DNA from: an uncultured Erythrobacter sp.
GTDB lineage: Bacteria > Pseudomonadota > Alphaproteobacteria > Sphingomonadales > Sphingomonadaceae
Direction: 5' to 3'
DNA: 64,000 nucleotides
Assembly (NCBI GenBank): GCA_947502815.1
Contig: CANNBH010000001.1
Location: 1 to 64,000 of the forward strand
Positions 28,824 to 32,894 of the stretch are shown here, one piece after another (position 1 is the first letter of the stretch; every line of letters starts with the position of its first letter). The notes beneath the pieces are model-generated. The model was given only the letters and a program-made list of their open reading frames with translations. It did not search any database and had not been told where the DNA came from. Both the position numbers and the translations under genes were made by a program.

Positions 28824-29577
28824 CCGCCATCACCGCGTCATAGCCCTCATCCTCGAGCTGCAAAGCCAGCTCTGGCCCGCCCGTTTGAACGATCCGCCCA
28901 CCGGCCAAAATGCTCACCCGATCAGGCTTCACCACGTCGAGCAGGCGTTGGTAGTGAGTGATCAGCAAAACACCCTTATCCGGCGCGCGCATGATGGCGT
29001 TGATCCCATCGCCCACAACGCGCAGCGCATCGATATCAAGGCCGCTGTCGGTTTCATCAAGCACTGCAAAGCTTGGGTCCAAAATGCCCATTTGGACCAT
29101 TTCGGCGCGCTTTTTCTCACCGCCGGAAAAGCCGACATTCACTTGTCGCTTAAGCATTTCCATATCGAGCTTAAGAAGGCCCGCCTTTTCCTTCGCGAGC
29201 TTTAGGAATTCGCCGCCGGACAAGGGATCTTCGCCGCGATATTTGCGCTGTGCGTTGGCCGCTTCGCGCAGGAATTGCACGTTGGAAACACCGGGAATTT
29301 CGACCGGATATTGAAAACCCAAAAACAAGCCCGTGGCCGCACGCTCATGCGGGTCTAGGTCGAACAAATCGGCCCCTTTGAACGTCACCGATCCACCTGT
29401 GACGTCATAGCCCGGCTTTCCGCCCAAAACATTGGCAAGTGTTGATTTGCCTGCGCCATTGGGGCCCATAATTGCATGCACTTCGCCTGCCGCAACCTGG
29501 AGGTTCAGCCCTTTTAGGATCTGCTTTGTACCACTGGCTCCGTCTACTTCAGCGGACAGATTTTCAATCGTTAGCAC
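28816..29577 (-). CDS. sufC: Fe-S assembly ATPase SufC, GTG start
   Basis: 253 residues. Walker A is GPNGAGKST, signature motif is NVGFSGGEKKRAE, and Walker B is FAVLDETDSGLD. It drives SufBCD with ATP. The start is GTG 29577, six bases after AAGGAG, giving the family N-terminus L-T-I-E-N-L; the longer frame from 29631 adds residues with no family match. The start lies 14 bases inside the upstream gene, so its translation is probably coupled to that of the 186-residue protein. Confidence 0.94.
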   Translation of the reverse strand: MLTIENLSAEVDGASGTKQILKGLNLQVAAGEVHAIMGPNGAGKSTLANVLGGKPGYDVTGGSVTFKGADLFDLDPHERAATGLFLGFQYPVEIPGVSNVQFLREAANAQRKYRGEDPLSGGEFLKLAKEKAGLLKLDMEMLKRQVNVGFSGGEKKRAEMVQMGILDPSFAVLDETDSGLDIDALRVVGDGINAIMRAPDKGVLLITHYQRLLDVVKPDRVSILAGGRIVQTGGPELALQLEDEGYDAVMADA

Positions 29578-30124
29578 CGCGTGCTCCTTCTCTTTCCTCA
29601 TAAGCAGCCTCTGCGGCGGCGGCGGTCGCATCGGTGCGCGCCTTCACAACAGACGCATCGTGCAATTCGAGGACCAAGCCCTTGGGCCGTTCTTCATTAT
29701 ATGCGTCTTGCGCAGCCTGGGCGGTGCGCATCAGATACGTGAATTGATTATCCAGATCGGCCCCACGCGCGATGTGGATGCGGCCCGCGTGCTCAAATAT
29801 CTGACGCACATCTTCTGCCGTAAAATCGGCATACTCGCCGCGCGCAGACAAAGCGGTTGTCGCGGCCGCTTGCGCCTCTTGGCTTTGTTCATCGCAGCGC
29901 GGCAGATCAGAGCGATGCTGCTCTTCGAAATTCGCATCACCGGTGACCCAGCGCATATTGCCGGTCAGACAGCGGCGATAATCCTCGACAAACGGTTGAA
30001 TCAGGCGTGGGTATTCGAGCGTCCAGGTCTCTGGCGCATCATTCTCGATCGCCGTGGGCGCTTCGCCAGCGGCTTGAAGCATCATCATTGGAGCTAGGAC
30101 TAAGGTAAAGCTGGTCATAGTCAT
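29564..30124 (-). CDS. hypothetical exported protein in suf operon
   Basis: 186 residues with an apparent signal peptide (Met-rich core, cleavage near LQAAG). Mature part is acidic with two Cys (RRCLTGN and LPRCDEQ), Gln/Ala-rich helices and no recognised domain. It sits between the DUF559 gene and sufC, overlapping both (4 and 14 bases), so it is surely co-expressed with the Suf proteins. A role in Fe-S metabolism is only inferred from position. Confidence 0.7.
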   Translation of the reverse strand: MTMTSFTLVLAPMMMLQAAGEAPTAIENDAPETWTLEYPRLIQPFVEDYRRCLTGNMRWVTGDANFEEQHRSDLPRCDEQSQEAQAAATTALSARGEYADFTAEDVRQIFEHAGRIHIARGADLDNQFTYLMRTAQAAQDAYNEERPKGLVLELHDASVVKARTDATAAAAEAAYEEREGARGAND

Positions 30125-30642
30125 TCGTCCGTTGAGCCAGTGTTGTAAGACGCGCCTGAATTCGAAGTCTCGCGGCTTTGGTGCCGTCTCTTGTTCTTAT
30201 CGTCGATGCGCATGCGCATGCCGAGCGTGATCCGCTCCAGCACGGCATCCATATTGTCCAGAATATCAGCCGCCTTTATCCGCATCACCCGGATGCCGAC
30301 GGCCTCAAGGCTTTTGTCGCGGCGTTTGGACAGGGTTTCGTCCTCGCCCTCTTCCTCAACCATGATCGCCATGCCGAGATTGTGGCAGTTAAAATCCACG
30401 ATGGCAGAGCCAACCACGGCAAAACGTTTGAAGGTGTAGCGGCCCAAATTGGCGCCCGCGAATTTGTCGGCCAAGGCCTTGTGAGCGGGCGAAGCAAAGC
30501 GCTTCATTTCGCGCGCACGGTCGTGCAATTCATCGAGACGCTTGTCCGAAATCTTCCACCCCCGGCCCTTTTTGTTGAGGGCTTCGGGATCGATGGCCTC
30601 GTCCGATGGCGGGCGCAGGTTTAAGGTTTTGCGATCTGTCAT
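30121..30642 (-). CDS. DUF559 (endonuclease-like fold) protein in suf operon
   Basis: 173 residues. The central part (about 55-140) matches DUF559: KFAGANLGRYTFKR, VGSAIVDFNCHNLGMAI, RDKSLEAVGIRVMRI, LDNMDAVLERI. DUF559 has a very-short-patch-repair-like PD-(D/E)XK fold; here the usual ELDGGQH segment is changed to a VEEEGED stretch, so activity is doubtful. The ends are charged and probably disordered. Its first 14 codons are duplicated in the chimeric frame at 31046-31168. ATG overlaps the stop of the upstream gene (ATGA). Confidence 0.82.
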   Translation of the reverse strand: MTDRKTLNLRPPSDEAIDPEALNKKGRGWKISDKRLDELHDRAREMKRFASPAHKALADKFAGANLGRYTFKRFAVVGSAIVDFNCHNLGMAIMVEEEGEDETLSKRRDKSLEAVGIRVMRIKAADILDNMDAVLERITLGMRMRIDDKNKRRHQSRETSNSGASYNTGSTDE

Positions 30643-31049
30643 CTGATAGCCTCGCGCCAGATTCGTTGCGAAGCAGCAAGCGCGTCAACGGCACCGAACG
30701 CACGCCTGATGACCTTGGTTCGTGCTTCGGTCGAAGTTATCCCTTGCTCGTCAAGAACTTCGTTCATTTGCGTCAAAGCCGCTTCACGTAACTCGTTGCA
30801 TTCGGAGCCGGTCGCTGGTCCCTCTTGAACCTCGCCGCCCATAATGACTCGAGATCCAGCCCTGCGCAGTTCGCAATGCAAGAAAGGCGTTAAAGCCGGA
30901 GAAAATTCGTCAGGATAGTTAGCGGTGCCAGTGAACCATGATTCCTCGATAAGCGCCTCCACCTTCTCGGCTTCGCTATCTCTTGCGACCGCTGGGTGCG
31001 AGGCCAAGGTGGCAGTAACGCCGAGCAATGCTGTCAGAACCCTAATCAC
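30639..31049 (-). CDS. hypothetical exported protein in suf operon, GTG start
   Basis: 136 residues with a signal peptide (TALLGVTATLA core, cleavage near PAVA-R). Contains two Cys (HCELRRAG and SECNELRE) and no recognised family. GTG 31049 overlaps the stop of the 40-codon chimera in the pattern GTGA, exactly as the gene at 31401 overlaps the true sufB stop. It is one of two unrelated genes held between copies of the sufB end and the DUF559 start. Confidence 0.62.
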   Translation of the reverse strand: MIRVLTALLGVTATLASHPAVARDSEAEKVEALIEESWFTGTANYPDEFSPALTPFLHCELRRAGSRVIMGGEVQEGPATGSECNELREAALTQMNEVLDEQGITSTEARTKVIRRAFGAVDALAASQRIWREAIR

Positions 31050-31168
31050 CCCACACTCCCTTCAAGTGAAATCGCCAGCAGCTTCTGTGCTTCCACCGCA
31101 AACTCCATCGGCAGTTCTTTCAGCGCATCCGATAGCGTGCGCAGGTTTAGGGTTTTGCGTTCAGTCAT
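31046..31168 (-). CDS. 40-residue chimeric ORF (DUF559 head joined to SufB tail)
   Basis: The first 14 codons read MTERKTLNLRTLSD, matching the DUF559 protein start MTDRKTLNLRPPSD. The remaining 26 codons read [17 protein letters not shown] and on to the SufB C-terminus, identical to SufB except one residue at the joint. Over the last 25 codons the five base differences from sufB are all synonymous. Its ATG overlaps the stop of the 78-residue gene, its TGA overlaps the GTG of the 136-residue gene. It is probably translated as a relay in the operon; a folded function for the peptide is unlikely. Confidence 0.7.
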   Translation of the reverse strand: MTERKTLNLRTLSDALKELPMEFAVEAQKLLAISLEGSVG

Positions 31169-31401
31169 TTCTTATACCCACTTTGGTGGCTCAATTCCTC
31201 GGTCGGCGCGCCATTAATGTTCGAAGAATCAACTGGTTCGGCAGGCGCAAAATGCGGGTTGTCAGTATGCTGACCAGTAGCAATGCTAGATTGGCCAGAA
31301 GGGTTCCCCCAATCTCGCGCCGTTTGACGGTCACGACGAACAAGCCAAGTCATCAAAAACACAAAGCCAATTGTGAAGCCTAAAACGAAGAGCGTTTCCA
31401 T
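31165..31401 (-). CDS. small single-pass membrane protein in suf operon
   Basis: 78 residues: an N-terminal membrane helix (about 3-22, LFVLGFTIGFVFLMTWLV) then an Arg-rich stop-transfer and a hydrophilic tail. No family recognised. ATG 31401 overlaps the sufB stop by one base (GTG 31404 would overlap it by four). The base composition is more A/T rich than in the suf genes around it, which fits recent acquisition. Confidence 0.6.
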   Translation of the reverse strand: METLFVLGFTIGFVFLMTWLVRRDRQTARDWGNPSGQSSIATGQHTDNPHFAPAEPVDSSNINGAPTEELSHQSGYKK

Positions 31402-32894
31402 CACCCCACACTCCCTTCAAGCGAAATCGCCAGCAGCTTCTGCGCTTCCACGGCAAACTCCATCGGCAATTCTTTAAGCACATCCTTGGCAAAGCCGTTG
31501 ACGATCAGCGCCACGGCCTCTTCTTCGTCCAGCCCGCGTTGCTGCGCGTAGAACATCTGGTCATCGCTGATCTTCGAAGTCGTCGCTTCGTGCTCAATTT
31601 GCGCGCCGGGGTTCTTCACTTCGATATAGGGCACGGTATGCGCGCCGCATTCATCGCCGAGCAGCAGGCTGTCGCACTGGGTGAAGTTGCGCACGCCCTC
31701 GGCCTTGGGCCCCACGCGGACGAGGCCGCGATAGGTGTTGTTCGATTTGCCCGCGCTGATCCCTTTAGAGATGATGGTTGATCGTGAGCCTTTGCCGTTA
31801 TGAACCATTTTGGTTCCCGTATCGGCCTGCTGGTGGTTATTTGTAACCGCCACCGAATAAAACTCGCCCACACTGTCTTCGCCGTTGAGCACGCATGACG
31901 GGTATTTCCACGTCACCGCGCTGCCAGTTTCAACCTGAGTCCAGCTGATCTTGGATCGGTCGCCTTGGCACAGGCCACGCTTGGTCACGAAATTGTAGAT
32001 CCCGCCTACGCCTTCGGCATTGCCCGGATACCAGTTTTGGACAGTCGAATATTTGATATTCGCATCTTCCATCGCGACCAATTCAACCACGGCGGCATGC
32101 AGCTGGTTTTCATCGCGCATCGGCGCGGTGCACCCCTCGAGATAGGACACGTGAGAGCCCTTTTCCGCGATGATCAAGGTGCGTTCAAACTGTCCGGTGT
32201 TTTCCGCATTGATGCGGAAGTATGTCGACAGCTCCATCGGGCAGCGCACGCCTTCTGGAACGTAGACGAAGGTGCCATCGGAAAAGACTGCGCAATTGAG
32301 GGCGGCAAAATAATTGTCGCGGACCGGAACAACCCGGCCCAGCCATTTCTTCACCAGCTCAGGATATTCCTTGATCGCTTCGCTGATCGACAGGAAGATC
32401 ACGCCTGCTTTTTTCAATTCTTCGCGGAATGTCGTCGCGACCGAAACGCTGTCGAACACGGCATCAACGGCGACTTTCTTTGCGCCCTTCACCCCGGCAA
32501 GCACTTCTTGCTCACCCAGCGAAATGCCAAGCTTGTCGTAAACCCGCTTAATCTCTGGATCGAGATCGTCGAGCGAATCCAGCTCCACCTTTTTGGTCGG
32601 CGCGGCGTAATAATAGGCGTCTTGGTAATCGATTTTGGGATAGCCAACCTTGGCCCAATCCGGCTCTTCCATTTGCTCCCACAGGCGGAACGCTTTCAAC
32701 CGCCAATCAAGCATCCATTGCGGCTCGCCCTTTTTGCCCGAAATAAACCGAACGGTGTCTTCGTTCAGGCCTTTTTCGGCAAATTCAGTTTCAATATCCG
32801 AAGACCAGCCGTGCTCATATTCTGCCGCCGCTGCAGCTGCATCCTTGGCATCTTGGTCCATTTCTGGATTTTGAAGGTCGAGATTATCGGTCAT
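31401..32894 (-). CDS. sufB: Fe-S scaffold subunit SufB
   Basis: 497 residues. Core scaffold for cluster assembly. Typical segments are [41 protein letters not shown] in the middle (read in parts), [37 protein letters not shown] and [11 protein letters not shown]. It follows the Rrf2 regulator with a four-base overlap. Its last 26 codons are duplicated at 31046-31123. Confidence 0.96.

Follow-up and report, generated by a model that had tools for sequence, protein, structure and literature searches.

The effector-immunity arrays of the T6SS of Vibrio cholerae have been proposed to grow by homology-facilitated illegitimate recombination, in which one end is homologous and the other illegitimate (Kirchberger et al. 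2017, PMC5361080). The locus described here, a slot in the suf operon of an uncultured Erythrobacter sp. and its relatives, resembles these arrays, as they are portrayed in that work, in that alternative modules are added beside a conserved anchor while older genes and remnants are left stacked. Contrary to them, the suf slot belongs to a housekeeping operon, where it separates sufB from sufC, its cargo families are mostly unknown, and its remnants keep a chain of overlapping ORFs.

A second comparison is offered by small variable segments, also known as microdiversity loci, which are short non-homologous segments between conserved genes. Short repeats flank 10-18% of them, and illegitimate recombination has been invoked for their origin (PMC2884548). 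The suf slot likewise holds short non-homologous segments between conserved genes; however, the survey as presented was made within species, whereas the suf slot was compared between species and is located inside a co-directed string of overlapping genes. Merodiploids of Streptococcus pneumoniae, in turn, are described as arising when incoming DNA in natural transformation prompts unequal exchange, with tandem duplications as the outcome (PMC3784515). Unequal exchange is also proposed for the suf site, but the pneumococcal duplications reported there are ~100-900 kb long and repeat-dependent, whereas the suf site gained 526 bp with a joint of 3-5 nt.

Finally, termination-reinitiation coupling at overlapping gene pairs has been shown experimentally, with a variable role for the Shine-Dalgarno sequence (PMC6728339). 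As in those pairs, stop/start overlaps and intragenic Shine-Dalgarno sequences are found at the borders of the suf slot and on both sides of the junction ORF described below. The pairs treated in that source are ordinary gene pairs, whereas the candidate bridge in the suf operon would be a recombination scar. Literature searches pairing DUF559 with SufB, or the suf operon with Erythrobacter, returned no published description of the slot.

A junction ORF between two cargo genes

The window, which is the whole stretch of 64,000 nucleotides analyzed, carries on its minus strand, in this order, sufB, a first cargo gene named X79, a 40-codon ORF, a second cargo gene named Y136, a DUF559 gene, a gene for 186 amino acids, and two genes that, from their position, we take to be sufC and sufD. 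The sufB gene (31401..32894, minus strand, like all features given here; 497 amino acids; Pfam SUFBD_core, 3.4e-79) has a Shine-Dalgarno-like motif in its last codons, where the next gene also starts, overlapping sufB by GTGA. X79 (31165..31404) has an N-terminus that is hydrophobic by eye, and encodes 79 amino acids counted from its own GTG; the 78 residues given in the first-pass annotation correspond to a count from the next ATG, so that the correction is small. Y136 (30639..31049, 136 amino acids) begins with what looks by eye like a signal peptide. The right border of the slot is the DUF559 gene (30121..30642, 173 amino acids; PF04480, 2.7e-13), which is intact and continuous, and in which comparison with its homologue in genome G067 placed no mosaic boundary.

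The 40-codon ORF (31046..31168), running from ATG to TGA, had been read as a DUF559 start joined to a sufB end, and this reading is confirmed: 14 codons of DUF559 (36/41 nt identical) are fused in frame to the last 25 codons of sufB. The DUF559 5' end remnant (31128..31168) repeats the resident 5' end (30602-30642) over 41 nt with 88% identity. By direct-repeat comparison, the second sufB 3' end (31045..31130), which terminates in a Shine-Dalgarno-like motif and the start of Y136, repeats the resident one (31400..31485) over 86 nt with 93% identity. When the interval was shuffled with its dinucleotides preserved, none of 300 shuffles equalled the score of either match (z=49 for sufB, z=19.8 for DUF559); the two-part repeat match is far beyond chance. 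A search of the same genome with positions 30600-31490 matched no second place.

The five base changes over the last 25 sufB codons and the stop are all synonymous relative to the resident gene, as had been observed earlier, with one extra, non-synonymous difference where the two parts meet, a GTG codon changed to GCG (Val to Ala). Three residues differ in the DUF559 part (MTERKTLNLRTLSD vs MTDRKTLNLRPPSD). At the joint, the bases common to both parents are GGA, if the DUF559 parent was like the window's own, or GGATG, if it was like that of G067. Such a joint, with 3-5 nt in common at codon 14 of DUF559 and a point ~26 codons before the end of sufB, is what is expected of an end formed with little or no homology. 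On one side the junction ORF overlaps X79 by ATGA and on the other it overlaps Y136 by GTGA, with GAAGGGAG upstream of the latter, which is the combination of stop/start overlap and Shine-Dalgarno sequence that characterizes termination-reinitiation pairs.

The junction ORF is probably the scar of a single unequal recombination in which two versions of the suf operon took part and through which the second cargo gene was added. One parent would have been organized as sufB-X79-DUF559 and the other as sufB-Y136-DUF559. The joint would have formed where codon 14 of DUF559 in the X79 parent met the sufB of the Y136 parent, at the few bases common to both, while the DUF559 side would have paired by homology, either in homology-facilitated illegitimate recombination or in an equivalent unequal exchange. 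The product would have gained the 526 bp that include Y136 and kept X79. Both the single step and a donor of this kind are what we infer from the locus. Gene transfer agents are a possible source of DNA in Alphaproteobacteria.

An identical joint geometry would result if a segment comprising the sufB tail, a cargo gene, and the DUF559 head had been duplicated in tandem within the lineage, and one of the two cargo copies had later been replaced by homologous recombination. This route, the main rival of the single exchange, is less likely, as it requires two events, the second of which needs a crossover in the 41-nt DUF559 remnant or in the short tail copy. Furthermore, X79 and Y136 belong to different sequence families, and a plain tandem duplication would have the same gene in both units.

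Cargo and scars in related genomes

From the 114 genomes of the genus, 100 were searched and 82 were used, namely the window, G058, and 80 stretches consisting of the sufB end and ~3.8 kb downstream (less at contig ends), at one genome per species; those left out are the 14 that were not drawn and genomes whose sufB match was partial or ranked low. DUF559 was reached in 81 of the 82 stretches. The interval between sufB and DUF559 holds an insert of 63 to 1236 bp in 65 of these 81, is replaced by a 4-nt gene overlap in 15, and is mis-anchored in one, L113, which is counted among the 81 although its DUF559-head query starts inside sufB (interval -25). The inserts encode 63 cargo proteins, a count that includes cargo fused to DUF559 and from which palindrome ORFs, the junction ORF, and nine further ORFs, taken to be remnants or out of frame, were removed. 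These proteins fall into 46 sequence families (phmmer, E 1e-3), an upper bound because short or fast-evolving homologues may be split. DUF559 is 90-95% identical at the DNA level in 93 genome pairs; both members carry cargo in 58 of these, and a cargo family is common to 2 of those 58. The sufB/DUF559 junction is an interchangeable gene slot, and most of the related species examined differ in what they carry there. Since the cargo differs between most related pairs, cargo replacement appears to be frequent, which lends some weight to a duplication followed by a swap.

Within the suf operon of the window and 22 named loci, the slot stands apart from the other junctions, as gaps larger than 30 nt occur at 19/23 sufB-DUF559 junctions. 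Elsewhere in the operon they are found at 8/22 sufC-sufD, 2/22 sufD-sufS, 5/22 sufS-sufT (the largest of 44 nt), and 1/12 sufT-sufA junctions. The sufC-sufD count, taken from the window plus L031-L052, suggests a second, weaker slot.

Few of the cargo proteins match annotated families. When the five fused proteins are set aside, Pfam returned 5 families at E up to 0.01 for the remaining 58, with only DUF2158 found in more than one member, and other annotation amounted to 2 PHROGs and one NCBIfam match in one member. A role of the cargo in defence was considered and dropped, as 0/58 proteins had a PADLOC match. In a few loci the frame from the sufB end continues into the N-terminus of DUF559: L064 (G065), L078 (G018), L101 (G089), L111 (G020), and L058 (G047). 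The one in L064 contains an acetyltransferase (GNAT) domain, and those in L078 and L101 belong to the same family.

The first-pass annotation had interpreted the locus as two alternative cargo genes stacked by recombination, and had proposed a search for strains carrying only one of them. For the 136-residue gene, a genome with only a relative of it was found. G058 has sufB, a Y136 relative (58%) that starts in the sufB stop codon, and then DUF559, with no other cargo, which is the gene order expected of one of the two parents. In this genome, sufB (L054 1-154) is interrupted in frame by a TAG 12 codons short of its normal stop, possibly an error, as the assembly is 73% complete. A Y136-type gene is also located directly behind sufB, overlapping its stop, in G480, which belongs to another genus; no DUF559 match was seen at that locus. 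For X79 the search had the opposite outcome, with no strain carrying it alone among 114 genus or 397 family genomes. Its matches were one of 30% in the genus, in G022 and away from the slot, and two weak ones in the family, without sufB or DUF559 alongside; on this evidence X79 appears to have no convincing relative in either set.

The gene behind DUF559 (29564..30124, 186 amino acids) is hit by a profile, A2, made from members of the Y136 group; the match is in part circular, as A2 includes two 186-aa-like members. The two families (30639-31049 and 29564-30124 in the window) are linked by profile search and occur as adjacent pairs in G115, G318, and G356 (another genus); in G115, the Y136 relative sits between DUF559 and the 186-aa gene. 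The profile link and the adjacency together suggest that the families may be old tandem paralogues.

The stacking itself has a counterpart in G053. Its slot contains an 83-aa gene, a 38-codon ORF beginning with a DUF559 head, a 230-aa gene, and then the real DUF559. Both stacked genes occur singly elsewhere, the first as an 84-aa homologue in L109 and the second in L070 and L074, and from its gene order this locus reads as a stack analogous to that of the window. A DNA scan found no significant sufB tail after the DUF559 head of G053, and the DUF559-sufB chimera of the window was detected in none of the 81 other genomes examined. In G022, a DUF559 head continues in frame into the following ORF. 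The scan for DUF559 heads gave 15 rows, of which only those of the window, L068, and L123 are real heads, with one panel query mis-anchored (L113). Taken together, the interchangeable slot, the single-cargo state of G058, and the analogous stack of G053 support the stacking of alternative cargo genes by recombination.

Second sufB tails are more widespread. They were found in 14/65 intervals, including that of the window, by a DNA scan with a panel of tails, used because queries with a genome's own sufB end miss copies whose resident end has changed; 14/14 are reached in frame. Palindromes, here called REP-like in a naming of our own, lie directly behind sufB in 18/65 intervals. They are of at least three kinds and are placed inside open frames (for example in L085, L090, L102, L108, L114, and L120); the motifs searched were themselves taken from these inserts. 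Each of the 18 inserts with a palindrome starts with an open frame that overlaps the sufB stop by 4 nt; 13/18 additionally contain a copy of the sufB end, and 13/18 have a resident sufB end without the Shine-Dalgarno-like motif.

The 13 tail copies outside the window are located behind such palindromes and not behind DUF559 heads. In 12 of these 13 intervals, the copy that follows the palindrome is 18-31 nt long; six of the 12 short copies align from GGCGAT and the others begin later. Most of them may trace to one ancestral event, since six start at the same base. Two copies look independent in origin, namely the one of 86 nt that follows a DUF559 head in the window and that of L079 (57 nt).

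These palindromes, and the short tail copies that follow them, could be expected if a small mobile element had inserted at the sufB 3' end, carrying or duplicating the gene end as integrative elements do. For the window this is very improbable: none of the palindrome motifs searched is present in its slot, the DUF559 half of the chimera would be left unaccounted for, and Pfam gave no recombinase match in the six proteins of the site that were scanned, three of which, X79, the junction ORF, and Y136, are free of any Pfam match.

Origin of the second sufB end

The synonymous changes in the sufB part had been attributed to the import of a tail from a diverged but functional allele, with an alignment of sufB 3' ends proposed as the way to find the donor. 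In this alignment the tail copy differs from the resident sufB at 5/78 positions, from the nearest other tails at 6/78 (five species), and from other tails at a median of 10/78. The tail of G058, with 8/78 differences, is not that of the donor. No donor emerged from the 81 other tails, 0/81 of which are nearer to the copy than that of the resident gene. A source among the other sampled species was therefore discarded, and import from a diverged allele in general stays unproven. Regarding the observations that had been named as contrary to import, a scar common to all relatives was not seen in the 81 genomes, while the first half of the other, a copy nearest to its own sufB, was found.

The copy and the resident tail have four minority states in common, each present in less than 35% of the 81 other tails, with about two private changes per side. 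Under a stricter cut (<20%) there is one common state, as there is in 73/482 pairs of other tails differing at 4-6 places, so the kinship signal between copy and resident is weak. Duplication within the lineage and later replacement of the cargo keeps its place among the explanations because the resident sufB is the closest match of the copy; the four minority states point weakly in the same direction. Nor does the synonymous pattern speak against decay as firmly as the first-pass annotation had it. In the absence of selection, the chance of an all-synonymous outcome is 0.0014 if all five changes fell on the copy, but 0.07-0.02 if only two or three did, in which case slow decay is compatible with the data; the argument thus points in the right direction with less force. 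Judged by these differences, the tail copy would fit an origin in a sister lineage, or as an older copy made within its own.

In the DUF559 remnant, 5/41 positions differ from the resident head and 4/41 from that of G067 (that is, 37/41 identical). A recent transfer of DUF559 from G067 was also considered, as the DNA identity is 90.0% in DUF559 vs 85.6% in sufB, but with no sharp boundary it does not make a strong case.

Translation across the slot

If the junction ORF is the scar of an unequal recombination, its preservation may be explained by what the sufB tail contains. In many species the last codons of sufB read like GAGGGGAG(C/T)GTGGGGTGA, a sequence that combines a Shine-Dalgarno-like motif with a GTG start that overlaps the stop. 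A loose form of this motif is present in 61/64 resident tails without a palindrome behind them and in 5/18 with one. It is kept in 12/14 second tails, by reading of the sequences, with L079 and L134 as those without it. Because the sufB tail carries the Shine-Dalgarno sequence and overlapping start of the next gene, the tail copy may preserve the translation of Y136. The scar would have been kept because the tail supplies these two elements to Y136, and the in-frame joint would let ribosomes pass from gene to gene. The junction ORF may in this way act as a translational bridge between X79 and Y136.

Continuity of this kind is common in the slot. Among intervals of at least 100 bp, 53/64 are fully crossed by ORFs of at least 30 codons that overlap one another by 8, 4, or 1 nt, compared with 296/3840 shuffles; with 4- or 1-nt overlaps alone, 40/65 are crossed, against 166/1950 shuffles. 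The 11 uncrossed intervals include five (L058, L064, L078, L101, and L111) that have instead the frame of the sufB end running into DUF559. All junction ORFs (17/17) are divisible by three in length, a figure biased by selection, as they were taken from the ORF list; the frame-blind figures are those of the DNA scans.

The open frame, the overlaps on both sides, and the five synonymous changes could also indicate that the ORF encodes a functional peptide on which selection acts directly. We give this little credence, since the chimera was seen in none of the 81 other genomes, and comparable junction ORFs keep their frame and overlapping start while the encoded ends drift (AISLEGSVG to GGMLEGSVG or VGSLERSVG). 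In the short copies of L103, L118, L126, L129, and L134, upstream residues are lost or changed, and the in-frame end and the overlapping start are kept.

A broader proposal, which we put forward tentatively as a possibility, is that the sufB 3' end is a portable module for ribosome binding and restart. New genes would enter behind a fresh copy of it, the intervening ORFs, whether chimeric or containing repeats, would be kept open and in frame as ribosome relays, and the operon would be a standing expression site where small, largely unknown genes turn over faster than their neighbors diverge.

New genes need to be expressed without breaking their neighbors, and the suf operon provides a natural series for this problem, with one junction, dozens of unrelated inserts, and recorded scars. 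Because the scars keep frame and start while residues drift, selection for overlapping genes and the entry of genes into operons become open to direct test. The slot also places about 46 small protein families, as an upper bound and most of them unannotated, in line with the pathway of iron-sulfur-cluster assembly.
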